Shown: in pieces, positions 22,458 to 60,437 of the stretch
How positions within the stretch are numbered: the stretch's first letter is position 1
How the letters are laid out: the number at the start of each line of letters is the position of its first letter
From: Hysterangium stoloniferum
Taxonomy: Eukaryota; Basidiomycota; Agaricomycetes; Hysterangiales; Hysterangiaceae
Assembly: GCA_015178975.1 (NCBI GenBank)
Contig: WHVD01000002.1
Coordinates: 1,736,001 to 1,800,000 of the forward strand
DNA length: 64,000 bases
Reading direction: 5' to 3'
Notes under the pieces: model-generated
Databases searched by the model: none
What the model was told of the DNA's origin: nothing
What the model saw: only the letters and a program-made list of their open reading frames with translations
Translations under genes and position numbers: made by a program

Positions 22458-25400
22458 ATGTCCAAAGACAACGTTGGTTTTGCTCCAGAAAAAGACGTCA
22501 TATTCATAAAACTACCAGCCTGCAGCGTTCGCGAAACTCCACCGGGCTCTACAATATTATGTAGAGGCTACATCGGGTTCCAAGCCCGCCCCTCGAGCCA
22601 AAAAAAGATACCTCGTTTAAGGCAACTTTACGATACTCCTACTATGCATACCAAAGCACAATCTCATGCAGAGTCTTCACGGCAGAGTGCACTAAAAAAT
22701 AACCAACGTTTCTACATTGAGGATTCCGATGATGACTTGAACCTCCCTGGGATGTCACTGCCTATTTCTCCTGGTGCTGGGGATGAGGACGAGGAAGTCG
22801 CCATTGAAGAACAGAACAATAAAGAGAAGAAATGGTGGGAGAAACGGGCACGGAATTTGGTCAAAGCCTACGGGAAACTGGGAAACGATGGGTATCAACC
22901 TCAGGACGGGTCGGCACAACCAATACCGCAGGGACGTTGGCCTTTCATTGAACAGGCCATCGGTGCACATAAAGGGGAGAAAAGGAAGCATACGAACAAC
23001 AATCTTGACGTAGAAGCCAATGCTAATAGAGACCTCCCCAACATCGAGCCATTGCCACTAGGTCACGGCCATGGTATTCTAGGTACTCTCCTTTCTCTTT
23101 ATCAGCATACTAGGAGCGAGTCAAGATTAGACCTCGCAAGCTCTGGGGCTTCAAATACTGACTTGGAGAATAAGACTGATGGTCTCCGAGGCAGGCACCG
23201 TTCTCATCAGGATGGTGATCCAACATCTCGCTTCAATCCCTGTAGTGCAAGTGAATCCCAACTATATCCCTCATCGTCTGCAATGTCACATCCAGGCCGC
23301 AGTCGCAGCGTCTCGCCAGTCACGGCTCCTGCGTCCCCGATCTCTCTCCCAGACATCTCACAGACCAGATCCTCACCGCGGAAGGAAAAGCTCAAGCTCC
23401 GTAGACCATTTTCGAGAGCAGCATATGGTCCCCACCTTCCTCTTTCAGGATTGTTGCCTACATTAAATCCATCCGACTGTCCTCCAAAGGCAGCGCGAAG
23501 TTCCGGCGGTGTAGTTGGTGCTCTTATCGCGACTACGAATAATCTCGCTGGACCGGCTGCACCAATTCCAAGCTCAGTTGGTCCGAATGTGTCGAAGAAG
23601 GGATTCAGGCTGTCGAGGTGCGTTTTCATTTGACGATTCAAGCATATTTATTCCATCTCAAAGGCCAATTGGATAGATATGAGCTATCTCCAGAAGCTCC
23701 AATGAGACGAACTCCTAGGCAGAAAAATTCATTTAGTGTGCCGCCTACTCCTGGATCGACCTTTAGCAGCACGGATCATACCTTCACTGAATGCATCCCA
23801 TCGACATCTGGCACTTCTACCCCACAGACTAGTGGCGAGAAGCCGAAGAAATCAACAATGGCAACTTTATCTGTTTCGATACCGCATACCCATCCGCCGC
23901 GCCCGCCCAATATGATTTCAGTCCCCTTTGAGAAAACTACGTCCTCGTACGAGACCAGTGGTCAAGCCTATGAAGACGGAAAGGCGCACGGGCGTCCTTA
24001 CAGAAAGGTGAAGAACGATCGACGGCGAAAGGCAGAGATCTATGTAGGCATTTTTCGTGCATGAATTTGGATACCAGATAATAAATCTGACGATTGCAGA
24101 TCACTAAGCATGTGGCAGAAATTCTTCAAAGACAGGAATTTATACTCAAGCTTGCCCGGGCCTTAATGATGTCAGCGCCGATAGCCTGTCTCGTTGACTG
24201 TTTATTTATGTCTTGTTGCTCTAGGTTTGCTGCCCCTGGTCATAGGCTTCAAGCCCAACTGAAGTCAACGGCCCGTGTTCTTGATATGGATATATCCACC
24301 GTGTACTTCCCGAATGTTCTGCTTGTTTCATTTGATGATGCTCTCACGAGTACTTCCAATGTCAAGATAATCCAACAAGGGAGCACTCTAAATATGGACA
24401 AGCTGCTCTATACTCACAGGCTCTACTGGAAAGTAGGCATTTCAAGTTCTTTCGTTCCTTTCACATGAACTGAGAACCCCCCCTTTTCGACAGGTCATAC
24501 ATGATAAAATATCGGTGTCATCCGCATCTGCCTCACTTGACCTATTAATGTGCAGTCCTCCTCGATATCGTGATTGGCAAATCGTCATTTTTGGTGGCCT
24601 TTGCTCATCCGCCATTTGTTCGCTTTCCTTCTCGGGATCGTTCGCAGACTCCTTTGTGGTATTTCCGCTCGGTTGTCTGCTAGTAATAGTACAGATAACC
24701 AGTGCGAGGAATGAATTATATTCCAATGTTTTCGAGTGAGTTGTTCTCGCCACGCATTAGATAGCTCGGCTTAAACCGCTCTAACGTATACAGGATAACC
24801 ATTGCTACCGTGTTGAGCTTCATCTCAGCCGCCCTCGCGTCCTCTCGCAAGTTTTGCTATGCCGCAATTGCATCTAGTTCTGTTGTGCTTATACTACCTG
24901 TCAGTGTTTTATTGAGTCCGTATGGAAATGCTTGACGGGAAGGAATGCAGGGATTCTTCGTGTTGAGTGGTAGCCTGGAATTAGCATCCCGACAACTGGT
25001 CAGCGGTGCCGTCAGGATATGTTTCGCAGTCATGTATGCACTATTTCTGGTAATCCTGTATCTAATCTATTCGAGATACATTATATATATTTACTCGTTG
25101 TCATAGGGTTTTGGACTTGCCATCGGCTCTGAGTTTTATTCCCGTATGACTGGGCTTCGGGTAGTGGGTCCGGACGACTACTTGTGTGGATCAGTACATC
25201 ATGCAGCGGATCCGTGGTGGCAACGCGAGGTGCCACTTTGGTGGGGTATGTGAGAGTGCTTTATTCAGAATTGTTTGTTTATTTTAAATTATCCACCAGC
25301 GTTTCTTACAGTCCCATTATACTCCTTTTCGTTGAGTCTACGCAATCATGCCAGTGTCTGTAACAAAGAAATGGTCAACTGGTTTACTGTCATACTAGTC

Positions 25401-25882
25401 TTGTATCCTTACGATCATTTTTTTGACAGCTTGTAACCATCTCCATTTCCTGTGCAGGATGGACAGCAAATCACTACGCCGGTGTGATATTCAAAGGTCG
25501 TCCTGATATTCAATCAGCCGTTGGTGCATTCGCAGTGGGGATCATCGCCAATATCTACGCGAAGTTCTTTTCTGGAAACGCATACGTCGTTATGGTAAGT
25601 TCCCTGCTCGCTGTTCATCAAATTGTCAGTCTTAACAGTCTTCCATAGATTACCGGTATTCTTTTTCAACTCCCGAGTGGCCTTGCGAATGGGGGCCTAC
25701 TGACATTTGCTGCCATCGACGATGAGAACAACCAATATCAATCGTATGAAGCGGGATTTCAAGTCGCACTTCAACTCATTGCCGTTGCTGTTGGTCTAAC
25801 AGTTGGCCTGTTTACATCTGTGGTTGTTGTTCATCCGCTGGGAGGAAGTCGGCGACGTTCTTCGGGTTTATTCAGTCTTTGA
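22458..25882 (+). CDS. ThrE/Prm10-type multi-pass membrane protein (P1)
   Basis: Eleven exons: 22458-23617, 23677-24043, 24100-24170, 24225-24432, 24494-24735, 24794-24899, 24951-25049, 25107-25245, 25300-25373, 25430-25594 and 25649-25882, giving 954 residues. The first 500 residues are hydrophilic, Ser/Pro-rich and probably cytosolic. From about 510 the ThrE domain begins (ITKHVAEILQRQEFILKLARALMMFAAPGHR), followed by about ten hydrophobic helices, the inner ones including QIVIFGGLCSSAICSLSFSG and AAIASSSVVLILPGFFVLSG. Fungal homologues include the pheromone-regulated membrane protein Prm10, and bacterial relatives export threonine; the substrate here is unknown. A later start at 22646 is possible. 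This is the only intact copy: pieces recur at 31143-33045 and 41205-41875. Confidence 0.88.
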
Positions 25883-27758
25883 TAAGCTGGCCCTCTCTTA
25901 TCTTGCATTCAAATAATGGATCCTCGCTGCATCAACCTAGATCATTAGTCATCATCATAGAACTTCATCATTAGATATACTTAGAGTTTTACTGACAATC
26001 AACGTCCCATCCCCCAGAACTGATTTATAAGGGAGAGATATATTTTAGCTACCGACATACTCCTTATTTTTCTCCTGGTGGACATCTGATTGCATCCATT
26101 TAAGTCACTTTTTTTCACTAATATTACAAGAATGCCAATGATTCTCTGATCGGTGGACAAGAAGGCTTCGAGACTGCAGGATAGAACTTGGATGTACCAA
26201 CGTGACATTCACTTTTCTCCACACAAACATTCCCGGAAGAAGGGTTACTTATTTTATTCCAGTTTATATGGACAGAATTTGCCTTTGTGAATGAAGGGCA
26301 ATGTGTTAAGCTTGATTATTAGGAAGTGCCCTACAGCAGGCACGTCGCAGAGCAATCTAATGTGGTTCAACTCTGCCTCAGTTTCAAATTATATTGATTC
26401 ATATTCACGCCTGCGGTGGAACTGGGGCGCCGAATGCCGGAAATATTTAATATAATTCTTCTTGTATGTTATCACTGACGGGCTATAATTAAATACACTG
26501 TCAACAGTATAGGCTACGATGCCGTCGTGTTTTAATTACTGTGGATCCATCCACTGCTACTGCCACTCCATAACACCGAAGATAAGAAAGTTTTTATTTT
26601 TAAGAACGCTCGTAACATCTACAACAAATACTGGTCAAGCATCCATTCTTGCAGTGCCATTGAATGTATGTCTCTTCCGAAAATTTTAGACGTTGACGTT
26701 GTGGCCCATTCGACAGCTCAACACCCTCAGCCTCTCAAGTCTGGTAGATTTGCAGGATTGCGTTAAATTAGTAGGTAACAGGATCGAACGTTTGCTTATG
26801 TTAGCCTACACGACGTGCCAAAATGCTGGTTTGAGAATATCAAGGAAAGATAATATATTCATATCCATGCGTAAAGCAAAATTGATGTGCCATGAAAGAA
26901 GTGTCCCCCAGAGCCATAATAATCGCCGCAAATTTATATCGTAAAATATTCCTGGAAACCGGCTTACTGAATGTTGATCTGAAAGGTGGCACTTTACGAA
27001 AAGAAATTCACAACACATCTTCTGATAAATCCCAGAAATAATCGTGTGGCATAGAAGAGAAAAGTTATTACAGATGCCTATCATAGTGGATGCAGAAGTT
27101 ACAGTCACATGGGGCTTCAAATGGGCACGTCGCAGGAGTGGCGGGAAAAGCCAGGGCCCGCAGGAAAAAACGGAGAGCAAGAAGGTTAATTTTTGAAAAC
27201 GCCAGTGAGTATTGGACGACGACTAATGTTACCGATGACTATAGGGACTTCCTTGGTAGTGGAGGAACAGAGGCCGGTGCGCCAGGGTAGCAGGCGTCGT
27301 AGGGATTGCACAATGCCTAAGCTCCATCGGAAGTGCGGGAAGCGTCGGAAGTGCTGGAAGCGTCGGAAGTGCGGGAAGCGTCGAAAGGGCTGTGAACATT
27401 TGCAGATTGGGGTCCAAAAATGCTATTGAGCGCCTGGCTCATCAATAAGGAAAATCACTCATCACTAGTGTGACAGAGAATGCAGCGCTGGAGTCAGATG
27501 AATGTGGAATATATACACATCATTCAAGAATGGCAATAATTGAACTAATATTAGAGCGATGCACATATTGATATAATACATACGAAGGATGGATCGACGC
27601 TCGGCTCAAGGCTGTGCCCCATATTGGTCAAGCCGCGCAGCATGAAGTCTATCAGGTGCAATTGGCGTACTGCGGCTATTGTAATTCCCAACATGTCTTC
27701 TGGATGGCACCATATAAAGTGATATTAGTATCATTCTGCTCTTCATTTCTAAGACACT
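25883..27758. other. Linker L1 between the Prm10-like gene and the hydrolase
   Basis: The left part (25900-26680) recurs at 33045-33735 and 34360-34463; the part from 26735 to 27430 recurs at 35690-36395. Small open frames on both strands are shared only in part and are broken by single-base length differences between copies, so the linker is probably not protein-coding. The hydrolase promoter must lie at its right end. Confidence 0.5.
27328..27389 (+). repeat. 18 bp minisatellite in linker L1
   Basis: The unit cggaagtgcgggaagcgt is repeated about three and a half times with one or two base changes. The matching place in linker L2 (near 36290) has a single unit, so the array grew, or shrank, after the duplication. 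Confidence 0.8.
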
Positions 27759-30549
27759 ATGTTACCCATGGTTGAAGCCACTAAGCTTCTGAGTATAATC
27801 TTGTCTATATCACCGGTATCCGCCCGTAACCTTGTTAAAAACAGGACAGTGAGTGGATTTCCTCTTACCATCCCCTTCCTTTTCTGACATGTACAGTCCT
27901 GCCTGTCCCCCCTCATATGGACCCCGTGCCCTGGAGTTCCCGATGTCGAATGCGCATCATATGAAGTATGTTATCTCTCTCATCTCGCCACACAAATAAG
28001 GCCGACACATTGCATGTCTTGTCAACTAGGTACCCTTGGACTATGCCAACCCTAAATCAGGGGTCGCAAATCTAGCAGTTGCACGGTTTAGAGCCATCAC
28101 TACGCCACGGCTAGGCACTGTCTTTGTGAACCCCGGTAGTTATCCACTTCTGGGTTAATTAACTTTCTGTTGACCGGCCTATAGGTGGACCAGGAGGTAG
28201 CGGCGTTAGTTTCCTCCAGGGGCTTGCTGAATTCACACCACTTTTTACAAATGGCCAATATGACGTTGTCTGTGTGTGGATATTCCTTCTATGACGTATT
28301 TGGCATAAACATAAGCTGCATTCTCTTCTAATCACTAGCATGGGATCCCCGCGGCGTAAACATGACAACGTGAGTCTCTCAATTCGTGCGTGCATACACC
28401 TCCCGGGAATAATGTACCCAATCTCCAAACAGACCCAAAGTAACATGTGGATTCAGCTCCATAGACGACTTCAACAATTTTTTCAGCGGTTCGGTCATTG
28501 CAAATGGAATAGAAGTACGCGGGAATTTCACCGACCAGGACGACTTGGATAATTTCTTCAGTCAAGTGAATGCAACTGACGAATTGTTGGTAAAGTTCGG
28601 GCAGAAGTGCGCGGAAGATAATGGTGCATTCTTGAAGTTTATGGGATCGGTAAGGCGGCAATGCAACTACTGGCCCATCCGTTGAACAACATATTTTTCT
28701 TATAGACGTCAGTCGTTCGAGATATGGTGGCCTTGGCCGACTGTATCGAGGGTCCTGAGAAGCCAATAAACTATTACGGAATTAGGTATTCAGCTCCAAA
28801 ATTTATATTCAGCATTTACTCACCTTCTGATCTGTTGGCAGCTACGGAACTGTTCTCGGCAATTATTTCGTAAATAGTTTCGTACCTTGTTTTATTTTTA
28901 TGTTTGATATATGACTGATGACTGGCTTATAGTGTTTCCAAAGGTGCTACATGCTGGTCGCTATGAGAGCATTGGATAAAACTAATTACATGATTGAAAA
29001 CTAGCGAGTCGGTCGTGTCATTTTAGATGGCGTTGTGGACAGCGTCATGTGGGTTTTCAAAATATTTCTCTCCTCATTCTTGAAAGTGTTTCAATACTTT
29101 ATCCAGCTGGGCAACGGAACCCTCTTTTGAGGTAGGTCAAAGACCGTTTTGATTGATCTAAATTCGGAATAACGCAAAGGGGTGGATAGACGGTTGCTTG
29201 TCTGTGGGTCTGTTCAATTTCAATATGCCAGCTAATTGTATTGTCATTGTAGCCGAGTATAGAGATGATGAACTCGCGGTGGCAGGATTCGCAGAACTTT
29301 GCGCTCAAGCAGGACCGCAGAGCTGTGACTTCGCGTCAATTAATTCGACTGCGACTTCCCTCCTCCAAGACCTGAGGGATTTAATCGATGTTAGTATACC
29401 TTTTACCTGCGCCTCTCTATACCTGATGTTAATTTCAATGAAAGTCTGCATACACTTTGCACAAAACAGGACAGTCAAACATAACTTCCTTTGATATTAG
29501 ATGTATGTTTTGAGTTTGGTTTCGAGGATGTTATAAAGCTTTACATGGAATTACTAGCATTTACGCAGACAGGACTTCGCAGCCCTACAACTTGGGCGAC
29601 ATCACTCGCCCCACAGCTGGCCTCCTGGCGTGAAATACTAACAAATGTTTCTTCATCCCTTCCATCCCAACCTGCTTCTTTACCACTGAGACGATCAAAG
29701 AGTCGCTCTGTCCCCGACCAGATCGATCCCATTCTCCAAGAGTTTGCGGTGTGCGTCATCACCAGTTCTTTTTTCAAACAATATTCACGTTTTAACTTGG
29801 GGATGCTAATATTATTCAAGAGTTATCGCAGTGCCATGCTTGGACAGCATTGATCAGGGGGACGTGACGACGAAACGAGTCTTCGATGCAGTTGTTCAAA
29901 TAACCCAAGAAGAAACACCATTGTGTGCGTCAATCTTCTAACGGTGCTTCTTCAAGCGACTTTAAACTTATAAGCTCATGAAGTTGGGGAGGTTTCAACA
30001 CAGTCGGTATGTGCAAGGATTTGTGACGCAAGGGTTTCACTCATTACATGTACTCTTGAGCAGCCACCGGGTCTGTGCCATAGATTCCCTATTCGAGCGG
30101 TGGAACGTTTCACAGGGCCGTTTAACAAGAAGTTAGCTAACACCATTCTCGTTATTGGAAATCGAGTAAGTTTCCTGCCATTACCTCTTACAATGTCCAT
30201 GTAGAAGGCCTATGAATGTTCTCAAAGGCCGATCCGATTACGCCTATCTTCAATGCTCGTAAGATTGCTACAACATTAGGTGAAAGTGCTCGTTTATTGG
30301 AGCAAGATGGATTTGGAGTGAGTCCTCTCACGTTTCCAGGCGCTTTCAGAGGACTCATCTTATCTCAGCATACCTCCATGGCTCAAAATTCCAATTGCAC
30401 AGAAGCTGTTGTTAGAGCCTATCTAGTAAATGGAACAGTGAGTTCTTGATTATGTCTACTAAGGTTCGGATGAGATATTCTGCACATGACAGTTGCCCAA
30501 CAATGGCCAAATTTGCCCGGTGGATGATCCCCCGTTTCCCTCCCATTAG
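27759..30549 (+). CDS. Secreted TAP-like alpha/beta hydrolase (T1)
   Basis: A signal-like N-terminus (LLSIILSISPVSA) is followed by VPLDYANP, the oxyanion-loop motif GGPGGSG, and YDVVSWDPRGVNMTTP. The nucleophile elbow is GISYG, the Asp lies in ILVIGNRADPITP and the His in DGFGHTSMAQ, so the full Ser-Asp-His triad is present. This pattern belongs to the tripeptidyl-aminopeptidase (TAP)-like proteases of the alpha/beta hydrolase fold. Clear exons are 27759-27848, 27897-27965, 28030-28135, 28185-28271, 28339-28369, 28433-28649, 28706-28785, 28842-28876, 28933-28943, 29005-29048, 29107-29135, 29253-29393, 29501-29750 and 29821-29924. The exon before HRFPIRAVERFTGPFN is unresolved. The last exons end at a TAG at 30547-30549. 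The catalytic Ser codon is split by an intron. The near-identical copy T2 lies at 38136-40929. A role in external protein digestion is inferred. Confidence 0.82.
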
Positions 30550-31140
30550 TGGCCAGGTTTCTCGTGCTGATAAGACAGAAGAATGAATTACCAGTCCGAG
30601 CTACCTCAATAATGTTTGAAAAATTCAATTATATATATTTGTGTTTTAGGATGCACGGACGTTATTTACTGTCATAACGGCTTTACGTAATGATAGCACA
30701 CTAAACATACAATATACTCACGTGCGATAAGATATCTGGAACCCAATTTGCTAAAATGAATCTGGTGTACTCAGCCAAATTAGCCCAAAGGTGTAAGTCA
30801 CGCCTGAATAATTGTTACTTGGAATATATTTTCCTTTTCTGAGTACAGGATCCGCCGGCTTTGTTTCGACAGGACAGCCTAGCTATTGGAAAGTCTTCCT
30901 CCTAGCCCCTTGATTCAAGCTTGGACCATGATTCCTATATAACCTTAGGGTCTAAGTGATGTCCAGGCGACACCTAGTAAACATAACAGAAGGGAACAAT
31001 CAGGAAAATCTTGAGATGCATAACGTTCTGGGTCTTCAGAAAACAAGGAGGAAAATGTTTAGCGGTAAGAATTAGTTCCAAAGATATAGAAACTGGGAGG
31101 AGAGGCTCTCCAATTTTTTAATACAATCTCATCTATATTT
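30550..31140. other. Spacer between duplication units 1 and 2
   Basis: The first 100 bases are shared with the downstream flank of T2 (41076-41205). The remainder shows no gene, repeat or motif. Confidence 0.4.
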
Positions 31141-31142
31141 TG

Positions 31143-33045
31143 TTGCGACCACGAATAATCTCGCTGGACCGGCTGCACCAATTCGAAGCTCAGTTGATCC
31201 GAATGTTAAAGGGATTCAGGTTGTCGAGGTGCGCTTTCATTTGACGATTTAAGCATACTTATCTCACCTCAATGGTTGATTGGATAGATATGAGCTATCT
31301 CCAGAAGCTCCAATCAGACATGCCTTTACCCAAAAAACATCATTTAATGTACCGCCTACTCCTGGATCAACCTTTAGCAGCACAGCTCATACCTATAATA
31401 AGAAATTGAAGAAATCAGAAATGAGAACATTATCTGTTTGGATATACCCATCCGCCTCATATGATTTCAGTCCCCTTTGAGCCCTCGTACGAGACCAGTG
31501 GTTCAAACCTATGGAGATGGAAAGGCGCACGGGCGTCTTTACAAAAAGGACCGGTGGCGAAAGGTAGAAATTTATGTGAGTATTTTTCATGTATAAATTT
31601 TGCACGATATAATAAGTCTGACGATTGTAGATCACTAAGCTTGTGGCGGAAATTCTACAAAGGCAGGAATTTACACTCAAGCTTTCCCGGGGATAATGTG
31701 AGCGCCAATAACCTGTCTCGTTAACTGTTTATTTATGCTTTGTTGCTCTAGGTTTTCTGTCCCTGGTAATAGGCTGCAAGCCCAACCGAAGTCAATGCCT
31801 CGTGTTCTTGAGATGGATATATCCATCGTGTCCTTTCCGAATGTATTTCATTTACTGATGCTCTCACGAATACTTCCAATGTCAAGATAATCCAACAAGG
31901 GTACACGTTAAATATGGGCAAACTGTTCTATACTCACAGGCTCTACTGGAAAGTAGGGATTTCAAGTTCTTTCTTTCCATTCACCATCAATTGATCCTCC
32001 CCCCCTTCGTCCGGTCATTCACGGTAACATATCGGTATTATCTGCATCTGCTTCATCTTGTCATTTTTGGTGGCGTTTGCTCATCTGTCATCTGTTCGTT
32101 TTCCTTCTCGGGATCGTTCGCAGAATCCTTTGTGGAAATTCCGCTCGGTTGTCTGCCACTAACAGTGCAGATGACCATTGCGAGGAATGAACCATATTCC
32201 ATTGGTTTCCAGTGGGTTATTCCTGCCACGTTTGTTTTGGATAGCTCTTCTTCACTTCAACACACAGGATGACTATTGCTAATGTGTTGAGATTCACCTC
32301 GGCCGCCCTCGGGCGTCCTCTCGCAAGTTTTGGTATGCCGCAGTTGCATCCAATTCTGCTGTGCGTATACTACCTGTCAGTATTTTATTGTGTTCTTATG
32401 GGAGATGGTTGACAGGAAGGAATGCAATGATTCTTCGTGTTGAGTGATAACCTGGAATTAGCATCCCGACGGCTGGTCAGCGGTGGTGTCAGAATATGCT
32501 TCGCAGTCATGTATGCTCTATTTCTGCGAATCCTATATCTAATCTATCGGAAACACATTTTATATGCTGTCATAGGGTTTTGGACTTGCCACCGGCTCAC
32601 AGTTCTACTCCCGTATGACTGGATTTCAAGTGGGTCCGGGTGACTATTTGTACAGCACACCATGCAACGGATCTGTGGTGGCAACGTGAGGTGCCACTCT
32701 GGTGGGGTATGTGGGAGTATTTTACTCATAATTGTTTGTTTATTTTAAATTATCCACCAGCGTTTCTTACAGTCCCATCTCCTTTTCGTTGAGTCTACAC
32801 AATCATGCCAGTGTCTGTAACAAAGAAATGGTCAACCGGTTTACTGTCATACTAGTCTTGTATCCTTACGATCACTGTTTTGACAACTTGTAACCATCTC
32901 CATTTCCTGTGCAGGATGGACAGCAAATCACTACGCCGGTGTGATATTCAAAGGTCGTCCTGATATTCAATCAGCCGTTAATGCATTCGCAGTGGGAATC
33001 ATCGCCAATATCTAGGCGAATTTCTTTTCTGGAAGGGCATACGTC
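31143..33045 (+). pseudogene. Prm10-like pseudogene (P2)
   Basis: It matches P1 from 23530 to about 25585. The whole N-terminal third is missing. Inside, the coding part carries several deletions (for example the PSTSGTSTPQTSG segment is gone and the CSPPRYRDWQ segment is lost) and stops. The 3' end is also missing: after FSGRAYV the sequence jumps straight to the downstream flank, dropping the last exon and its intron. It cannot make the transporter. The introns are still recognisable, so this is a DNA-level duplicate and not a retrocopy. Confidence 0.85.
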
Positions 33046-33732
33046 TACATTCAAATAATGGAACCTCACGGCATCAACCCAGATCATTAGTCATCATTAT
33101 AGAATTTAATCATCAGATATACTTAGAGTTTTACTGACAGTCAACCCATCCAGAACTAATTATAAGGGAGATATATATTTTAGCTCTCTTATTTTCCTTT
33201 TGGTGGACATCTGATTACATCCATTCAAGTCACATTTTTGACTGATATTACAAGAATGCACAATGATCCTCTGATCGGCGGACAAGAAGGCTTCGAGACT
33301 GCAGGATAGAACTTGGATGCACCAACATGACATACACTTTTCTCCATACAGTCATTCCTGGAAGAAGGGTTACTTATTTTATTCCAGTTTATATGGACAG
33401 AATTTGCCTTTGTGAATGAATGGCAAATGTGTTAAGCTTAATTATTAGGAAGTGCCCTACAGCAGGCACGTCGCAGAGCAATCTAATGCGGTTCAACTCT
33501 GCCTCAGTTTCAAATTATATTGATTTATACTCACGCCTGTGGTGGAACTCTGGGGCGCCGAATGCCGGAAATATTTAATATAATTCTTCTTGTATGTTAT
33601 CACTGACAGGCTATAATTATGTAAATACACTATTAAAGGTACAGGCTACGATGCCGTCGTGTTCTAATTACTGTGGATCCATAACACCGAAGTTAGAAAG
33701 TGTTTATTTTTAAGAAAGCTCGTAACGTCTGT

Positions 33733-34343
33733 CACTAGTGATAGACTAGTGAGCTTGGTGGATGCTCTATTGTGCTGTTGACACTGTCTGTCATCGATTC
33801 AAGGATTCCACTTTGGAGTTTTTGCGTCGACAAATAGACCTGAATATTGAGTTATATTAATCGCCTTCTTTTGTCAAAGCTGTCTTTCACCAACTTCTAA
33901 CCCTTTAGCATATAAATCACATATAAGCTACTAGTACACCCTATGTTAAGAATTCATTCTTAACTTCATCGAGTGTACATGTTTCAATTACCGAAAGATT
34001 ACACTAATACTGATATTTCCTTTTATTAGCGTGACTTTACTTTACAACAGTTGCACCTGCTGTCATATATTAATCAGGCATTTGGGAATGCCTATGCCCT
34101 TTATGTAGACTCCCTAGATTCCTTAAATCTATAGTCAATGTTTATACCAGCCAGTAAATACGAATCTCGAGTTAGTGTGTCTAGCCGAGTCTGGCCAAGC
34201 TAGCGAATTCTCCTAGATGGCTCTAGACAATATATATGGCATACTTACTGATTTTCCCAATTTTCTGATGCTCTTTCCTATCCTCACAACATAGGGGCAA
34301 CACTGCACCGGGCAACAACAAAAATAAACGATGAAAGACCGCT
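33733..34343. other. Block present only in unit 2 (insert A), contains a MITE
   Basis: In unit 1 the text runs from gctcgtaacatct directly into acaacaaatactgg. In unit 2 about 610 bases separate the same flanks. The block is AT-rich, has no gene, and includes a copy of the 200 bp MITE at 34071-34272. Either it was inserted in unit 2 or lost from unit 1. Confidence 0.65.
34071..34272 (+). mobile_element. 200 bp MITE family, copy a
   Basis: It begins near atcaggcatttgggaatg and ends near ttcccaattttctgatg, imperfect inverted ends, and shares the inner blocks gtgtgtctagccgag and gatggctctaga with copies at 50553-50753 and 60231-60437. It has no coding capacity. Confidence 0.7.
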
Positions 34344-34734
34344 GAACAACAAATACTGGTCAAACGTCTATTCTTGTAGTGCCATTGAATGTATGTCTCT
34401 TCCGAAAATTTCAGACATTGACGTTGTGACTATTTCGACAGCTCTACAGCCTCAGCCTCCTCGTATATGATACTTCTGGCATTGTGGAGATAATTTCCGC
34501 CCTAGATGGTCTAGCAGTTCACATATAGAACATTTATAAAATCAATCACATATATGAAAGTAATTCAGATTTAGACTTTATTTAGACCTCTGGAACCTCA
34601 GGCTGATTAGGAAGGATATCTACAACTTGGGAGCGAATTGTGCGGCGCTTGGTATTTCCTGATTCGTAACTGAAGAGCGCATGTGTACTTTTTTCCGTTC
34701 GTGATATACTGTAAGGTGATCTCCGTCGAACGCA

Positions 34735-34741
34735 TATAAAA
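34735..34741 (+). promoter_or_regulatory. TATA box for the small secreted-protein gene
   Basis: TATAAAA lies 83 bp before the ATG at 34818. A pyrimidine-rich stretch (tcccctcatttttct-like) follows before the start, as in strongly expressed fungal genes. Confidence 0.6.
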
Positions 34742-34817
34742 CGTTAACGAGATTGTGAGCTATTCATTATTTCTTAACAATCCCTCATTTTTCTGAACCT
34801 AACACCTGTTCTTCGCA

Positions 34818-35303
34818 ATGGTTTTTAAAGCTTTGTTGTTGATAATGACCTCGATATCCCAGGCTGTAGTGTCTCATCCCGTTGATGCTCCCCAACCCAC
34901 ATTCCCAGTCCTTCCGGCGTTACCTCATGCCGCCCCACCCGCCCTCCTGAGCATTCCTGAACATCCCGACGCTCTCGCGGACCTTCCTATTATAGGAACC
35001 ATCCCTGAAGTTGAGGGTCTTCCCATCGTCGGTCCGCTTCTGGGGGGTCTTTGCCTCAGACACGGTGCCAATGAAGCCCCCCCTTCGATTCCCTCTGGTA
35101 TTCCGGACCTCAACGGAATCTCCTTACTCCCACCTGCGCACGTTCTCCCTTCACTTCCAGTCAATGACATTCCCGTCGTTGGACCAATACTTGGGGGACT
35201 CTTGCCTGTATTAGGCTCCGGCTCGCTGAGGGATGCTGTGCCGCCCATATCACTCACGGTCGATGCGGTGCTGTCGGCATATAACCCTCGGTCCACAGAA
35301 TAA
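34818..35303 (+). CDS. Small secreted proline/glycine/leucine-rich protein with internal repeats
   Basis: A single exon encodes 161 residues. The N-terminus MVFKALLLIMTSISQAVVSHP looks like a cleavable signal peptide. The mature part has no cysteine pairs worth noting (one Cys) and repeats a motif of the form LPIxGxIP / LPIVGPLLGGL / IPVVGPILGGL, about three times. It is rich in Pro, Leu, Ile and Gly. No family is recognised. A secreted wall-associated or effector-like role is only a guess. The gene lies in a block that unit 1 lacks. A possible short intron near the LGGLCLRHG junction was considered, but the open frame runs through. Confidence 0.7.
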   Translation: MVFKALLLIMTSISQAVVSHPVDAPQPTFPVLPALPHAAPPALLSIPEHPDALADLPIIGTIPEVEGLPIVGPLLGGLCLRHGANEAPPSIPSGIPDLNGISLLPPAHVLPSLPVNDIPVVGPILGGLLPVLGSGSLRDAVPPISLTVDAVLSAYNPRSTE

Positions 35304-35689
35304 TTATCTACCTGTAGGCGTATCTCGTTCATGTTCCCAATCGTCACGTGGATTAATCTAAAATATAGTGTGTCATCCGTGCTAGTCACAAACGAGCTCG
35401 TAATTTCCCCTCACGACTCGGTTCGAGCTAATCCGATTGCATGTAGTACTTCCATTGTTATTAGTCACATTTCTTGTTTCTTCTGACCTGAAATAGTATT
35501 GAAAGTCTTGTTTAATGTATAGCAGACACGTTATTGCTTCACCTGGTTCTCTGGCAATCTTATCGGACTATCATTTAACGTCGCTCACTGTTCACCTTTG
35601 TGATTAAGATTGGCTCGCCATTCATTCACACTTTCATTAAACTCTGACGTTTGATCCCCCATGCGTAGTTCCATTCAAGTTGCAAACAT

Positions 35690-36400
35690 CTCTCAAGTCT
35701 GGTAGATTTGCAGAATTGCATCAAATTAGTAGGTAACAGGATCGAACGCCTACCTATGTTAGCCCACACGACGTGTGGAAATGCTGGTTTGACATTTTCA
35801 AGCAAAGACAATAGATTCATATCCATCCATAACGCAAAATTGATGTACCATGAGAAGTGTCCCCCGGAGCCATCATACGCCGGAAAGTTATATTGTAAAA
35901 TGTTCCTGGAAACCGGCTTACTGAACGTTGATTTAGAAGGGCACTTTACGGAAAGAAATTTACAACAGATCTTCTGATGAATCTCGTATAATATAGAAGA
36001 ATACAAATGTCACTACAGATGTCTATCATAGTGGATGCAGTAGTTACAGTCACAAGCGGTTTTACAGACGGGAATGGGCACGTCGCAAGAATGGCGGGAA
36101 ATCCAGGACCCGCAGGAAAAAATGGAAAGCAAGAAGGTTAATTTTTAAAAACGCCAGTGAGTATTGGACGATGACTACTGTGATCAGTGGCTATGGGACT
36201 ACCTTGGTGGCGGAGGCACAGAGGCCGCCCCCCGGTGCGCCAGGGTAGCAGGCGTCGCAGGGATTCACAAAGCCTAAGCTCCATGGGAAGTGCGGGAAGC
36301 GCCGAAAGGGCTGTGACCATTGGCAGATTGGGGAATACAAAAATGCTATTGAGGGCCTGGGTCATCAATGGGAAAGTCACCCATCACTAGTATGACAGAG
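35690..36400 (+). repeat. Linker L2, copy of 26735-27430
   Basis: It shares long runs with L1 (for example taggtaacaggatcgaacg, and aacgccagtgagtattggac). Length differences of one or a few bases between the copies break every shared frame, which argues against coding. Confidence 0.75.
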
Positions 36401-36419
36401 AATGCAGCGTGAGGGCCAG

Positions 36420-37850
36420 ATGAGGATGCTCCCAAGTTAAGATATCATGACTTTCATATCCTGATCAGAACTTCAGGAAAGTATAAAGTGAAGTCTATTA
36501 CAGAATGTGGGTTTGTGGTGATCCGCTGCCTGTATGAAATAGAAAATAGAAGATACCGTTGACCTTGTAAAAGTTCATACTGAGATGCTTCCGAATTTCA
36601 ATGTTTCCAAACTCTTGCAGGTGCTTACTTCATGCAAAGGTTGGCGTGCGAGAAAAAGCGCTTGATATCCGAAACGTCCTGTATAAGCAAGCCTATCTTC
36701 AAATCTTTCTCTATACAACCTGTCAGAAAGGCGTTTATTATGCATAGCCTTATCTACATTTGAATACAGATGGAAATACTCATGCTACCATATCACATCT
36801 CATCGCATCGGGATTACCAAAGCTCTGTTTTGGTTTCTGCTGTTGGCCATTTCCCCTATCTCAATTTAGTGTCACCTTGTTTGTGATGCTTTCGATTGTC
36901 ATACAGTGAGTGTAAATAGTTCTATCTTAGTGATTAAAATTCATAAGATTGATACAAACGTTAAGTTTTCTATTTTCTCAAAATATTGTAATAGTACCTT
37001 GGACAATATATTATATTTTTAGCAAGTTTTTCACAAATTGAAACTCGGAAAATTTGATGTTTTCCAAGGGACTTCCATGTGTCTTTTGAGTTCAAAAATT
37101 TGGACCTCCACCCTACGATACTCTCGTCAATGATTATCCAGCTGAACAATGATTGTGGCCGCAAACCCAATTCTATGTATGAATGAGGAAGGATGGTGTC
37201 GGGATTTTGGTAGTTTTAACAGAGGAGGCTTCCAGCTCGGCTGTTGCCTCATACTAATGGTTTTGCATTGTGCGTAAACACATTTCTTCGGATGGACGGG
37301 GGGCTGCGCTTCTGTCACCTATGCCTAAGACTTCTACCTATTCTTCCTATTCGGTACCTACCATAGCCACTTGGCCAGCTACATGTGTCTCAGCCTATAT
37401 CGCTCACAAAAAAAAAACTCGTCATAGGCGCCTATTCAGATTCTTTGTGGCGCTGGGGTGAGCTGCTTTTGGTGCACTGCAAAGTCCTTCCCGAGGAGAT
37501 AAAATTTTAAGAAATGAATTTTATTTTGTACTAAATATTACTTAAAGTAGATATTTTACGTCATACAAAAGTGGAATTAAAGGTAACCTTTAGGTTGAAT
37601 GTAGCTTGGCAGTAAATATCACATTTAGCTTCACTATTGTGTATGCCAAAATGTTAAAAATCAAGACCCTAATATAAACTAGAGTGTATAAGTATTTGTA
37701 AGTGACGGATTGAGGGATAAACCAACTCACCTCAGTCTCGTATACACGTATAACGGGCTGAGGTGATACTACTATTGCCTCTAGTTTATATATTTTACCG
37801 CATATGTTACCAGGCACCGCCAAAGTGATACCGGGCGCCCATGCCGAGGA
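36420..37850. other. Extra sequence in unit 2 without a recognised gene
   Basis: About 1.4 kb that has no partner in unit 1, where only some 90 bases separate the matching flanks. It is AT-rich. Frames are short, with no motif, splice pattern or terminal repeats. It may be an inserted element that is no longer recognisable. Confidence 0.45.
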
Positions 37851-38135
37851 TTAAGGTACGAGAAGTTTCGATGGTGTTTTCCAACACTCAGTGCTATATT
37901 CATATGATACATAAGAAAGATGGACTCCTATGAAGCGACAGATGGACAGATTGCAAGGCACGTGACAATCCAACCATACCTGGTTCAACGCTCGGCATGG
38001 CTGTGCCGCATCTTGGTCAAGCTGCGCAGGTGCAATTGGTGCACTGAGGTTACTGTTACTGTAATTCCCAACGTTTATTCTTAATGGCATATAAAGTGAT
38101 ATTAGTATCATTCTGCTCTTAATTTCTAAGACACT

Positions 38136-40929
38136 ATGTTACCCATGGTTGAAACAACTAAGCTTTTGAGTATAATCTTGTCTATATCACTTGTATCCGC
38201 CCGTAGCCTTGTTGAAAAGAAGACAGTGAGTGGATTTCTTCTTATCATCCCCTTCCTTTTCTGACATGTACAGTCCTGCCTGTCCCCCCTCATATGGACC
38301 CCCTGCCCTGGAGTTCCCGATGTCGAATGCACATCATATGAAGTATGTTATCTCTCTCATCTCGCCACACAAAATAAGGCCGACACATTGCACGTCTTGT
38401 CAACTAGGTACCCTTGGACTATGCCAACCCTAAATCAGGGGTCGTAAATCTAGCAGTTGCACGGTTTAGAGCCATCACTACGCCACGGCTAGGCACTGCC
38501 TTTGTGAACCCCGGTAGTTATCCACTTCTGGGTTAATTAACTTTCTGTTGACTGGCCTACAGGCGGACCAGGAGGTAGTGGCGTTAATTTCCTCAAGGGG
38601 CTTGCTGAATTCACACCACTTTTTACAAATGGCCAATATGACGTTGTCTGTGTGTGGATATTCCTTCTATAAAATATTTGACATAAACATAAGCTGCGTT
38701 CTCTTCTAATAAATAGCATGGGATCCCCGTGGCGTAAACATGACAACGTGAGTCTCTCAATCAGGGTGTGCATACACCTCCCGGGAATAATGTACCAATC
38801 TCCAAACAGACCCAAATTAACATGTGGGTTCAACTCCGCAGACGACTTCAACAATTTTTTCAGTGGTTCAGTCATTGCAAATGGAATGGAAGTACGCGGG
38901 AATTTCACCGACCAGGACGACTTGGATAATTTCTTCAGTCAAGTGAATGCAACTGACGAATTGTTGGTAAAGTTCGGGCAGAAGTGCGCGGAAGATAATG
39001 GTGCATTCTTGAAGTTTATGGGATCGGTAAGGCGGCAATGCAACTACTGGCCCATTCGTTGAACAACGTATTTTTCTGATAGGCGTCAGTCGTTCGAGAT
39101 ATGGTAGCATTGGCCGACTGTATCGAAGGGCCTGAGAAGCCAATAAACTATTATGGAATTAGGTATTTAGCTCCAAAATTCATATTCAGGCATTTACTCA
39201 CCTTCTGATCTGTTGGCAGCTACGGAACTATTATCGGCAGTTATTTCGTAAATAGTTTCGTACCCTGTTTTATTTTATGTCTGATATATGACTGATGTGC
39301 GGCCTGTAGTGTTTCCAAAGGTGCTACAGGGTGGTCGCTATGAGAGCATTGGATAAAACTAATTACATGATTGAAAACTAGCGAGTCGGTCGTGTCATTT
39401 TAGATGGAGTTGTGGACAGCGTCATGTGGGTTTTCAAAATATTTCTCCCCTCATTCTTGAAAGTGTTTCAATACTTTATCCAGCTGGGCAACGGAACCCT
39501 CTTTTGAGGTATGTCGAAGGCCGATTTGATTGATTTATATTAGGAATAACATAAAGGGACGGATAGACGACTGGTTGTCAGTGGGTTTTTTCAATGTATA
39601 TGCTAGCTGATTTTACTGTCATTGCAGCGGAACTTAGAGATGATGAACTCGCGGCGGCAGGATTCGCAGAACTTTGCGCTCAAGCAGGACCGCAGAGCTG
39701 TGACTTCGCGTCAATCAATTCGACTTCGACTTCCCTCCTTCAAGACCTGAGGAATTTAATCGATGTTAGTATACCTATTTACCTATGACCCTCTATACCT
39801 GATGTTGATTTCCATGAAAGTCTGCATACACGTTGCACAAAGCAGGACAATCAAACATAACTTCCTGGGAGATTAGATGTGTGTTTTGAGTTCGGTGTCG
39901 AGGATATTATAAAGCTTTACATGGAATTGCTAGCATTTACGCAGACAGGACTTCGCAACCCTACAACTTGGGCGACATCACTCGCCCCACAGCTGGCCTC
40001 CTGGCGTGAAATACTCACAAATGTTTCTTCATCCCTTCCGTCCCAACCTGCTTTGATACCACTGAAACGATCAAAGAGTCGCTCTGTCCCTTCCGACCAG
40101 ATCGATCCCCTTCTCCAAACATTTGTGACGTGCGTCATCACCAGTTCTTTTTTCAAGAAATATTTACGTTTTAACTTTGGGGATGCTAATATTATTCAAG
40201 AGGTATCGCAGTGCAATGCTTAGACAGCATTGATCAGGGGGACGTGACGACGAAACGAGTCTTCGATGCAGTTGTTCAAGTAACCCAAGAAGAAACACCA
40301 TTGTGTGCGTCAACCTGCTAACTGTACTTCTTCAAGGGATTTTAAACTTACGAGCTCATGAAGTTGGGGATATTTCCACAAAGTTGGTATGTACAAGGAC
40401 TTGTGACGCAAGGGCTTCACTCAGTACATCCACCTTTGAGCAGCCATCATTTGTGTGCCATAGATTCCCTACTCGAGCGGTGGAACGTTTCACAGGGCCG
40501 TTTAACAAGAAGTTAGCTAACACGATTCTCGTTATTGGAAACCGAGTAAGTTTCCTGCCATTACCTCTTACAAATGTCCATGTAGAGGTCTATGAATCTT
40601 TTTAAAGGCCGATCCGGTTACGCCTATCTTCAATGCTCGTAAGATCGTTACAGCATTAGGTGAAAGTGCTCGTTTATTGGAGCAAGATGGATTTGGAGTG
40701 AGTCCTCTCACGTTTCCAGGCGCTTTCAGAGGACTCATCTCATCTCAGCATACCTCCATGGCTCAAAATTCCAATTGCACAGAAGCTGTTGTTAGAGCCT
40801 ATCTAGTAAATGGAACAGTAAGTTCTTGATTATGTCTACTAAGGTTAGGATAAGATATTCTGCACATGACAGTTGCCCAACAATGGCCAAATTTGCCCGG
40901 TGGATGTTCCCCCGTTTCCCTCCCATTAG
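38136..40929 (+). CDS. Secreted TAP-like alpha/beta hydrolase (T2)
   Basis: The exon layout is the same as T1: start MLPMVETTKLLSIILSISLV, then VPLDYANP, GGPGGSG, WDPRGVNMTTP, the nucleophile elbow GISYG, RADPVTP and DGFGHTSMAQ. All catalytic residues are kept, the splice signals checked are intact, and no stop was found inside the exons followed. It ends with LPNNGQICPVDVPPFPSH and a TAG at 40927-40929. Differences from T1 are mostly single substitutions, such as GTVLGN to GTIIGS after the elbow. Both copies could therefore make active enzyme, perhaps with slightly different substrates. The exon between QEETPL and the FTGPFN block is unresolved, as in T1. Confidence 0.78.
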
Positions 40930-41075
40930 TGATTAGTTTTTGTTGGAGTCTGCGAGTCATAGAAGCTGCTCGACTCCCGTGTTGTCTCAGATGATTGATT
41001 GATTATGGGGTTGAATGAGTAAATTTGGGTATATAGAGGTCATGTATTTAGCATATACAATAGTGTGCTTTGCTC
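40930..41075 (+). other. Block of about 145 bp inserted after T2
   Basis: T1 is followed by cccattagtggccaggtttctcgtgctg. After T2 the same flanks are split by about 145 bases beginning gattagtttttgttgg. No terminal repeats were recognised. Confidence 0.6.
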
Positions 41076-41204
41076 ACAGTTTTCTCGTGCTGATAAGACA
41101 GAAGAATCAATTACCAATCCGAGCTACTTCAATCATGTTTGAACAATTTAATGATATATATTTGCGTTTTAGGATGCACGAACGTTATTTACTGTCATAA
41201 CGGC

Positions 41205-41875
41205 TTCATGACGATGGAAAGGCGCACGGGCATCCTTACAGAAAGGTGAAGAACGACCAGTTGGCGAAAGGCAGAGGTTTATGTGAGTATTTTCATGTAT
41301 AAATTTTGGAAATAAGTCTGACGATTGCAGATCACTAAGCCAGTCGTGAAAGTTCTCCCAAGACCGGAATTTATACTCAAGCTTTCCTAGGGATAATGTG
41401 AGCGCCGATGGCCCGTATCGTTAACTGTTTATTTATGCTCTGTTGCTCTAGGTTTGCTGCCCTGGTAATAGGCCCCAACTGAAGTCAATGACCCGTTTTC
41501 TTGAGATGGATATATCCATCGTGTGCTTTCCAAATGTATTTCATTTTCTGATACTCTCACGAATACTTCCAATGTCAAGATAATCCAACAAGGGTACACG
41601 TTAAATATGGACAAACCTTTCTATACTCACAGGCTCTACTGGAGAGTAGGCATTTCAAGTTCTTTCTTTCCATTCGCCATTAATTCATACTCTTCCCTTT
41701 CGACAGGTCATACACGGTAGCATATCGGTGTTATCCATATTTGCTTCACTTTGTCATTTTTAATGGCGTTTGCTCTTCTGTCATCTGATCGCTTTCCTTC
41801 TCGGGATTGTCGTAGACTCCTTTGTGGTAATTCCACTTGGTTGTCTGCTAATAACAGTGGAGATTATCATTGCGT
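41205..41875 (+). pseudogene. Prm10-like fragment (P3)
   Basis: It matches P1 from about 23970 to 24700 (GKAHGHPYRKVKN to the helix reading VVIPLGCLLITV). Several short deletions and substitutions have broken it. It starts directly after the T2 downstream flank and ends abruptly in the T3 fragment. Confidence 0.8.
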
Positions 41876-42720
41876 ATCGAGGGTCCGGAGAAGCCAATAA
41901 ATTATTATGGTATTAGGTACGTCTCCCAATTTTCTATTGAGGCACTTATTCGGTATTCTGATCTGTCAACAGCTATGGAACTGTTCTCGGCAATTATTTA
42001 GTGAACAGTTCGTACCCTGATTTATTTTATGTTTCGTAGATCGCTGATGGGTGGCGTATAGTGTTTCCAAAGGTGCTGCATGCTCGACGCTGTAAGAGCA
42101 TTCGCTGAAACTGATTACATGATTGAACCAGCGAGTCGGACGTGTGATTTTCGATGGTGTAGTAGACAGTATAATGTGGGTTATCCTTCAATCCCTTCAT
42201 TCTTGATAGTGTTTGATGGCGTTATTTTATCTAGTTGGTCGAGGGAACCCTCCTTTAAGGTACGTCACAGACGTCAGTTCCATTTGAATTCAGGCTGATA
42301 CAAATACATAACCCATGCGTTTAGTGCTCTGTGGGTTTTCCCAATGTCGATACACCAGCTAGTCGCACTGTCATTGCAGCGGAATTTCGAGATGTTGAGC
42401 TAGTGGCTGCCGGATTCGCAGAACGTTGCGCTCAAGCGGGACCGTAGAACTGTGCCTTCGCGTCAACTAACTCCACGTTAACTTCCATCCTTCAGGACTT
42501 CAGAAGTTTAATCGATGTGAGTTTGCCTATTACCTGTGGTACCTATATTTGACGTCGATTCAATGAAAGTCTGCATATACTTTGCACCAATCGGGTGGTT
42601 CAAACATATCTTCCACTGAGGTGTGCCTAAAGTTCAACCCCTGGGGCTATTTTGAACCTTCACATGGAATTACTAGCTTTGTACAGGCGGCGCTTGCCCA
42701 GCCCACAATTTGGGCGACAG
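41876..42720 (+). pseudogene. TAP-like hydrolase fragment (T3), joined to P3
   Basis: It matches T1 from about 28745 to 29625, from the exon leading to the GISYG elbow up to the PTTWATSL block. It is more diverged than T1 from T2, and stops are present in the exons. The left edge is the direct junction with P3 near gcgtatcgagggtcc; everything that lies between P and T in unit 1 is missing. Confidence 0.8.
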
Positions 42721-42756
42721 CTGGACGAGGCAAAGGGAAAGCTATAGTGAACCAAG

Positions 42757-50552: not shown

Positions 50553-50753
50553 CCTTACATCAGGAAAGTGGGAAGATCAGTAAGTATGCCGTCTATATTA
50601 TCTAGAGCCACCTAGGAGAGCTAGCTATCTCGGCTAGACACACTTCTTTCCCAAAATCTCTATTTACTAGTCGGTATAAAAGCTTACTATAGATCTAGGG
50701 AGGCTAGGGATTCTACATAATGGGTGTAGACATTCCCAAATCCTGATGTAAGG
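50553..50753 (-). mobile_element. 200 bp MITE family, copy b
   Basis: The ends read ccttacatcaggaaagtggga and, inverted, tcccaaatcctgatgtaagg: imperfect terminal inverted repeats of about 20 bp. This is the best-preserved copy, and shows the family is a non-autonomous DNA transposon and not a solo LTR. It is inverted relative to copies a and c. Confidence 0.8.
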
Positions 50754-52779: not shown

Positions 52780-53900
52780 GTCATGTTTGGTGAGTGTCTG
52801 TCAGGAACTGGAAAACCCGCCAGCCTCCAGGCCCCCAGACCCCGTCCTACATGCTCCTGACCCTCTATATTGTATAGTTACAACCGGAGTTCCTGCCGGA
52901 GCCCACACGTCAACTTGTTTATGCCTGACTCTGTATGCACCCCACCTGTCTGTACCTAACCCTCTGTGTCTCATACACCAGTCCTCGGACTCCACCCTAC
53001 ATACACCCGACACTCTGTGTCTTATGTACCAGTCACTGGACTCTGACTGGACTCCCGGAACCCCTCTAACAGAGCATAAAACCCCGCTCCTGTTATGATC
53101 TGTCTCTGTGTCTCACACACCAGTCATCAGAAAACCCACCGGACTCCATCAGACCTCCTGCACATCAAACCTGTCTATACCCGACACTATCTTGTGCACC
53201 AAGTCACCAGACTCCAACCGGACTTCCGGAACCCCTCTAACTGAGCCCTGCTCCAGTTATGGTTAAATGACCTGTCATGATTCGTTCTCCACTCCCGTTC
53301 CATTCCATCCCTAATTCCCAGTTTAGTATTTACTTGTTTCATTTTATGTTTAATAGTTCTGCCTCTCATTAATACCAGATTTGGTATTATTACATTTCAC
53401 AGTCTGCATAAGTCTGCTATATTCATGTACTTAGAATCCAGTTTCAATCTTGAACTGGTTTTCCCCCGAACAAGTTTGACCCTTGAACAAGTTTCCCTTC
53501 AATCCCAGTCTCTAGTCCTCTTGTCTGTCTGCATGCTCGATTCCCGGAACTCCCATGGGAACTCCAGAACCTATATCTCCTTGCATGCATTCTGTCAGTT
53601 TGAAATATGGATGCCTGAATGAGTGTACGAGGGCGCAGCCTATAAGCTGAAGCCAAGTCCATCTCAGTCATACCCATTCTCTGGTAACTATTCTGATACG
53701 ACACTCCCTTGTACTACTAATATTCCCAGAAACTCCCCGGACCTATTACCCGGGGAGTCCATGGGACTATTACCTGGAAAGTGTGTGTTCGGAATATAGT
53801 TACCGGAGAAACCTCCGTGGGACTATCCGTGGAGCTTTGTTCGGGAACTTAACAGTGTCACTCTTAGCAGCCTGCCCAGGGCCTCCTCCCCACCTCTGAA
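52780..53900. repeat. Degenerate repeats rich in C and T
   Basis: Phrases such as ctctgtgtctcatacaccag, cggactccaccgg and cggaacccctctaac recur several times with changes between 52880 and 53250; a set of ccggg/cccgg words recurs at 53720-53850. It resembles old transposable-element sequence, but no domain could be named. Confidence 0.4.
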
Positions 53901-60230: not shown

Positions 60231-60437
60231 AGCATCAAGGATTTGGGACTGTCTAGGCCCTTTATATAGACTGCCTAGACTCCCTAAATCTACAGTAAAC
60301 TTCTATATTGGCCAGTAAATAGAGATCTTGAGAAAGTAGTGTGTCTAGCCATGTTTAGCCGAGCTAGCGAGCTCTCTAGATGGCTCTAGAAAATATATAC
60401 GGCATACTTATTGATCTTCCCATTTTCCTGATGAGGG
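60231..60437 (+). mobile_element. 200 bp MITE family, copy c
   Basis: It starts catcaaggatttggga and ends, inverted, tcccattttcctgatg. Internal blocks (gtgtgtctagcc, gagctagcgagctc, gatggctctaga) match copies a and b. Confidence 0.75.

Follow-up and report, generated by a model that had tools for sequence, protein, structure and literature searches.

We analysed a 64-kb window of the Hysterangium stoloniferum genome (contig C112, positions 1736001-1800000, within a 111-Mb, 554-contig assembly) in which a Prm10/ThrE-like membrane protein gene (P), a linker (L) and a TAP-like alpha/beta hydrolase gene (T) recur in tandem. As indicated in Table 1, unit 1 consists of an intact P1, its linker and an intact T1, and unit 2 of a dead P2, a linker split by inserts and an intact T2. 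Unit 3 is a P fragment joined to a T fragment at position 41874, both of them truncated and without a linker. P2, P3 and T3 all contain frameshifts and stops. The genes carry numerous short GT-AG introns, like those of many filamentous fungi. All gene models are predictions, computed and then hand-edited. The first T models (567 and 568 aa) were shortened to 545 and 546 aa by removing a 57-bp intron and by a 9-bp acceptor shift. This correction was based on an exon of a paralog on contig C539, whose own rough gene model served for that exon and for reading off the paralog. The Pfam, PDB and genome protein searches of T were made with the earlier models.

Table 1. Features of the P-L-T array, in window positions (all on the plus strand).
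Feature	Position	Strand	Basis
P1, intact Prm10/ThrE-like membrane protein gene, 10 exons, 966 aa	22458..25882	+	open frame, GT-AG introns, Pfam
L1, unit 1 linker, noncoding as far as seen	25906..27501	+	repeat of L2
T1, intact TAP-like alpha/beta hydrolase gene, 21 exons, 545 aa	27759..30549	+	gene model, Pfam, PDB relatives
T1 downstream tail, recurs after T2	30554..30683	+	92% to 41077-41206
P2 5' part, old dead P copy, sister of P3 (right edge by eye)	31145..32730	+	exon indels, noncoding divergence
P2 3' part, recent copy of the P1 3' region, since broken	32731..33045	+	change point at P1 25269
L2 first block	33048..33730	+	repeat of L1
Dispersed repeat within L2, about 200 bp	34073..34270	+	repeat matches
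L2 middle block	34346..34459	+	repeat of L1
161-aa open reading frame within L2 insert	34818..35303	+	open frame
L2 last block	35690..36423	+	repeat of L1
Dispersed repeat, insert ahead of T2, about 200 bp	37452..37652	+	repeat matches
Dispersed repeat, insert ahead of T2, 220 bp	37668..37887	+	repeat matches
T2, intact TAP-like hydrolase gene, 21 exons, 546 aa	38136..40929	+	gene model, Pfam with earlier model
T2 downstream tail	41077..41206	+	repeat of T1 tail
P3, truncated dead P fragment, sister of P2 5' part	41208..41874	+	repeat, site patterns, lesions
T3, truncated dead T fragment, old T	41874..42719	+	repeat, site patterns, intron distances, lesions

When the window was compared with itself, P1 23529-25588 matched P2 31145-33045 (80% identity), L1 matched L2 in three blocks (25906-26620 with the first, 87%; 26621-26734 with the middle one, 89%; 26732-27501 with the last, 80%) and T1 27590-30551 matched T2 37981-40931 (92%). 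P3 corresponded to P1 23970-24706 and T3 to T1 28743-29601, the latter with an identity of 73-74% to both T1 and T2. About 317 bp ahead of the linker (P1 25589-25905), which form a gap between repeat blocks, are missing from P2. The DNA copied between units 1 and 2 takes in introns and intergenic sequence; the duplication thus took place at the DNA level, as a preliminary description of this stretch had proposed, and the tandem direct repeats of a multi-gene unit expected of an unequal crossing-over array are present. The same description counted three P-L-T units, which is true of units 1 and 2 as repeats, but unit 3 has no linker and L2 is interrupted by inserts.

We then considered what the P copies encode. 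In P1, the ThrE N-terminal domain (PF06738, residues 553-779) scored 161.7 bits against a cut-off of 26.3 (E = 2.7e-47), and the second ThrE domain (PF12821, residues 815-947) 26.7 bits, just under the cut-off of 27.0. No Pfam family was found in the single-exon open reading frame (ORF) 22458-23630, and a plasmid search with 22458-25500 gave no match. A study that reports CsPRM10 to regulate conidiation in Colletotrichum scovillei describes a second ThrE domain in the PRM10 orthologs of S. cerevisiae, S. pombe, A. nidulans and C. neoformans (PMC12941471). P1 resembles fungal PRM10 proteins by its ThrE-like N-terminal domain, a second ThrE domain being also suggested, and may differ from them by the about 550 aa that stand ahead of the ThrE domain.

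P is intact in unit 1 only. The 5' part of P2 contains 13 exon indels, eight of which are frameshifts, and P3 contains six exon frameshifts. Both copies have deletions of 4, 7 and 44 bp, at P1 24161, 24317 and 24538, and a TGA at P1 position 24172; these shared lesions all fall in P1 exons and none of the deletions is a multiple of three. Half of the P3 frameshifts (3/6), and 3/8 of those in the 5' part of P2, are therefore common to the two copies, meaning that P broke once, before P2 and P3 separated. These lesions rule out that units 2 and 3 lost P independently of each other. The 3' part of P2 has lesions of its own (one frameshift, a TAG at P1 25556 and a lost acceptor).

The T1 and T2 models, in contrast to the broken T3, have no internal stops and only GT-AG introns. 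Both PF08386 and PF00561 were above cut-off, with 62.5 and 34.5 bits for T1 and 64.2 and 39.3 bits for T2, and the solved relatives of T1 are Hip1 and other hydrolases (six distinct sequences at E <=0.001). Like Hip1 (7sfm) and carboxylesterase A (5bkm), T1 and T2 combine an Abhydrolase_1 domain with a C-terminal TAP-like domain, and Ser, Asp and His motifs stand at matching places: both keep GISYG at 225, DP[IV]TP at 476/477 and FGHTS at 503/504, which in T1 align with GYSYG, DPATP and QHT of Hip1. We take these motifs to be the catalytic triad. Unlike the solved TAP-like hydrolases, T1 and T2 are 545-546 aa proteins encoded by genes with 20 introns. A hydrophobic N-terminus was recognized by eye (MLPMVEATKLLSIILSISPVSA). 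The two proteins are probably exported and belong to the serine hydrolases of a peptidase/esterase type, and we infer that P1, T1 and T2 are working genes.

Looking at the kinship of the copies, we found that P and T gave different answers. Over the P overlap (657 ungapped columns), P2 and P3 agreed against P1 at 60 sites, P1 and P2 at 42, and P1 and P3 at 28, whereas over the T overlap (835 columns) T1 and T2 agreed at 162 sites, T1 and T3 at 30, and T2 and T3 at 27. Both comparisons are unrooted, and their reading leans on the intactness of P1 and on the intron distances. Intron distances (Kimura two-parameter, K2P) agreed across genes on the old side, with 0.301 for P1/P2 over the whole 5' part (0.319 in the P3-overlap region), 0.291 for P1/P3 and 0.340 for T1/T3. 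The recent side gave 0.13 for P2/P3 and 0.103 for T1/T2 in the T3-overlap region (0.086 over the 19 introns of the earlier model). T1 and T2 are thus recent sisters and T3 is old; that T3 might be a fast-evolving sister of T2 is ruled out by the site patterns (27 vs 30). Intron ages of 0.29-0.34 vs 0.09-0.13 exclude a simple one-step triplication and agree with the earlier suggestion that the events were not simultaneous. Unit 3 had also been called the most diverged, which is correct for T but not for P, since P3 is no farther from P1 than P2 is (0.291 vs 0.319). Because P2 and P3 are sisters while T1 pairs with T2, plain whole-unit copying cannot yield this array.

We also followed the divergence along units 1 and 2. 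The noncoding p-distance was 0.243 up to P1 25268 (n = 354) and 0.089 over 25269-30683 (n = 2971), and segmentation of the noncoding sites placed a single break at P1 25269 (twice the log-likelihood ratio, 63.2; permutation p = 0.002, the lowest attainable with 500 permutations). When coding sites were added, further breaks appeared at 25523, 26687 and 27704. P2 therefore combines a 5' part that is old and dead with a recent copy of the P1 3' end, and L2 and T2 are recent copies as well.

Taken together, these results are best explained by a two-step tandem duplication with a crossover inside P, to which we assign a probability of about 0.8. In a first, old step (neutral distance about 0.30-0.34) a P-L-T block would have been copied in tandem; one product would be P1-T1, the other an old copy in which both P and T went on to decay. 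In a later step (neutral distance about 0.09-0.13), recombination between misaligned copies, within P and near P1 25269, would have brought in a further linker and T and joined the dead P 5' part to the fresh P1 3' end. Unequal crossing-over inside P would give in one step the order observed, namely P1-L1-T1, the chimeric P2-L2-T2, then P3-T3 from the old unit. P3-T3 would be what is left of that unit after trimming by deletions, unit 2 would have acquired its dispersed repeats and other inserts afterwards, and short conversion tracts probably passed between T1 and T2. With the P and the T of the old unit both dead, each of the two genes was lost a single time; T is intact twice and P once because of the position of the crossover, and the unequal decay thus needs no selective contrast. 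The apparent preference for keeping the hydrolase would mostly be a by-product of copying.

Several observations weigh against this history. A single crossover predicts equal ages for all the segments it made, and the ages agree imperfectly, so that additional conversion is needed. P2 and P3 differ at 79/657 positions (0.120), compared with 264/2971 (0.089) in the fresh segment (p = 0.016). Within the latter, the middle and last linker blocks and the region upstream of T are more diverged (111/976) than the first linker block, the T introns and the tail (136/1811; p = 0.0008, for a grouping chosen post hoc with the data already seen). The P3 match stops at P1 24706, short of 25269, leaving no comparison on the 3' side. 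Finally, stretches present in unit 2 and not in unit 1 (34280-34345 and 37887-37980) occur in distant C112 fragments, meaning that unit 1 also lost DNA: 34280-34377, whose last 32 bases are also in L1, recurs at C112:1607902 and 1644689, and 37886-38022 at C112:1606861 and 1633113. Moreover, unit 1 27513-27546 has a weak 34-base match in one of these distant loci (L020, see below), just 5' of the counterpart of unit 2 37886-38022, which suggests a loss of DNA from unit 1 at this place. The identity of T1 and T2 is patchy, with a longest identical run of 167 bases (p = 0.0025) and a variance reached in 0/2000 shuffles. Both this and the uneven ages would be accounted for if units 1 and 2 later underwent gene conversion.

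A rival explanation is gene conversion instead of crossover: three units, with 2 and 3 as sisters, would already have been present, and everything in unit 2 from the counterpart of P1 25269 to the end of the T tail would have been overwritten by unit 1. The somewhat greater age of the P2/P3 split and the patchiness of T1/T2 would fit it. Such conversion would, however, have to cover about 5.4 kb, in one tract or in many, and stop just where homology ends (30683/41206), and it would take two extra events as compared with one; we consider it unlikely, though the most probable of the alternatives. The conclusion that P was lost a single time would be the same.

A second alternative builds on the preliminary description: after three similar units had formed, P would have decayed independently in two of them, and selection or dosage would have preserved T on account of a cooperation between transporter and peptidase. 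One intact P against two intact T is indeed what is seen, and T2 has the marks of a maintained gene. The ratio of nonsynonymous to synonymous divergence (dN/dS) between T1 and T2 was 0.049/0.088 = 0.55 (superseding 0.052/0.090 from the earlier models), with a bootstrap interval of 0.37-0.85 (500 bootstraps, 0.2% of them at 1 or more). It climbed to about 0.87 in the last third of the protein (0.065/0.075). Taken by itself, the overall ratio would equally fit a pair in which one copy is constrained and the other free. The proteins differ at 51 of 545 aligned residues, and about 8% of the intron sites differ. The exons contain one indel, in frame. At the intron rate, 12.8 would be expected with both copies free (p = 4e-5) and 6.4 with one of them free (p = 0.012); including the linker indels in the rate raises these numbers to 22.4 (p = 4e-9) and 11.2 (p = 2e-4). 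These data favour two T copies maintained for much of the time, or recently homogenised, and give moderate support to T2 being maintained as a coding gene.

The contrast between repeated loss of P and repeated keeping of T does not hold: the lesions shared by P2 and P3 record a single loss, T3 died too, and T2 was copied late from the T1 lineage, when P was already broken. As for the functional pairing of P with T, nothing beyond adjacency was found, and T1-like protein matches occur on five other contigs in which no P match was found. We therefore regard the scenario of independent decay and cooperation as improbable. An assembly artefact, or uncollapsed dikaryon haplotypes, is more improbable still: the inverted copies at 1630 and 1657 kb of C112, with 99.96% identity across 7.9 kb, might reflect an assembly problem at those places, but here the intron p-distances between units run from 0.08 (T1/T2) to 0.27 (T1/T3), the units carry different inserts, and all lie in one 2.0-Mb contig.

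Many tandem gene arrays owe their form to unequal crossing-over, to gene conversion and to birth-and-death evolution. The present locus resembles them by its direct repeats, adjacent dead and live copies, mosaic ages and recombinant gene at the junction; it differs from typical ones in having a two-gene unit and a chimera with a dead 5' part and a fresh 3' part that records the order of events. The processes are ordinary, and the preserved scar is the noteworthy part. Unequal survival of neighbours in a tandem array can be misread as selection: a second duplication starting in a dead gene copies that gene together with its live neighbour, after which counts of intact copies no longer equal counts of independent losses. 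With its chimera and its sharp divergence step, the locus offers a clear worked example of this, and establishes neither a new system nor a transporter-peptidase partnership. Among the papers listed, no title concerned a PRM10-TAP pair, which is not proof of absence; among papers on basidiomycete tandem duplication with unequal crossing-over and pseudogenes, none by title concerned these genes, and none was found on tandem copies of TAP-like proteins in mushrooms.

In genome searches, in which match counts for large families are lower bounds, P was found at this locus only (three places with DNA, 13 matches with protein). All 10 matches of T1 DNA were on C112. With T1 protein, 25 of the 37 matches listed were on C112 and 12 on the five contigs mentioned above (C539, C410, C217, C486 and C58), those on the last three being weak (E >=3e-6). 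The C112 matches include 5' fragments of T at 1603503-1604034 (L020), 1630232-1630762 (L019) and 1657193-1657723 (L018), and a shorter one at 1590785-1590974 (L021); L019 and L018 sit in the inverted copies noted above. The K2P distances of the fragments to T1/T2 (0.085-0.104 for the three longer ones, 0.093-0.099 for the short one) exceed that of T1 to T2 in the matching stretch (0.059), so the fragments diverged somewhat earlier than T1/T2, or faster. Sequence like window 52799-53833 and 2520-2916 flanks the fragments, and the two unit-2 stretches absent from unit 1 lie close to some of them. Upstream of P1, 21003-21114 on the minus strand is an inverted remnant with 75% identity to T1 30072-30183 and a weak protein match, probably another old T relic.

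Unit 2 carries at least three dispersed repeats. The one in L2 also lies at 50558-50748 and 60234-60433 (best 40 of 538 candidates scored); for the two ahead of T2 the best 40 of 237 candidates were scored, and the 220-bp one is at most 95% identical to its other copies among the matches listed. The ORF in the L2 insert is a single exon with, by eye, a hydrophobic N-terminus and two similar (L/I)P(I/V)VGP(L/I)LGGL stretches. It occurs once, in neither of the other units, with no relative in the genome, and 34818-35300 gave no Pfam family. That the broken linker hosts a new gene, which with T2 would form a locally born pair of exported proteins, is doubtful. Across the 64-kb window no Rfam family matched at gathering score, which rules out a known structured RNA in the linker, and a tRNA scan returned no gene. 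A further 145 bp (40932-41076) lie between the T2 stop codon and the T2 tail and are absent after T1, by insertion or loss. Elsewhere in the window we observed an inverted pair (461-1851 and 3174-4541, 67% identity), an ORF at 539-2086 on the minus strand with a weak O-FucT match (PF10250) under cut-off, and, at 8789-11442 on the plus strand, two ORFs hitting different parts of ubiquitin carboxyl-terminal hydrolase (PF00443) that are probably one gene.

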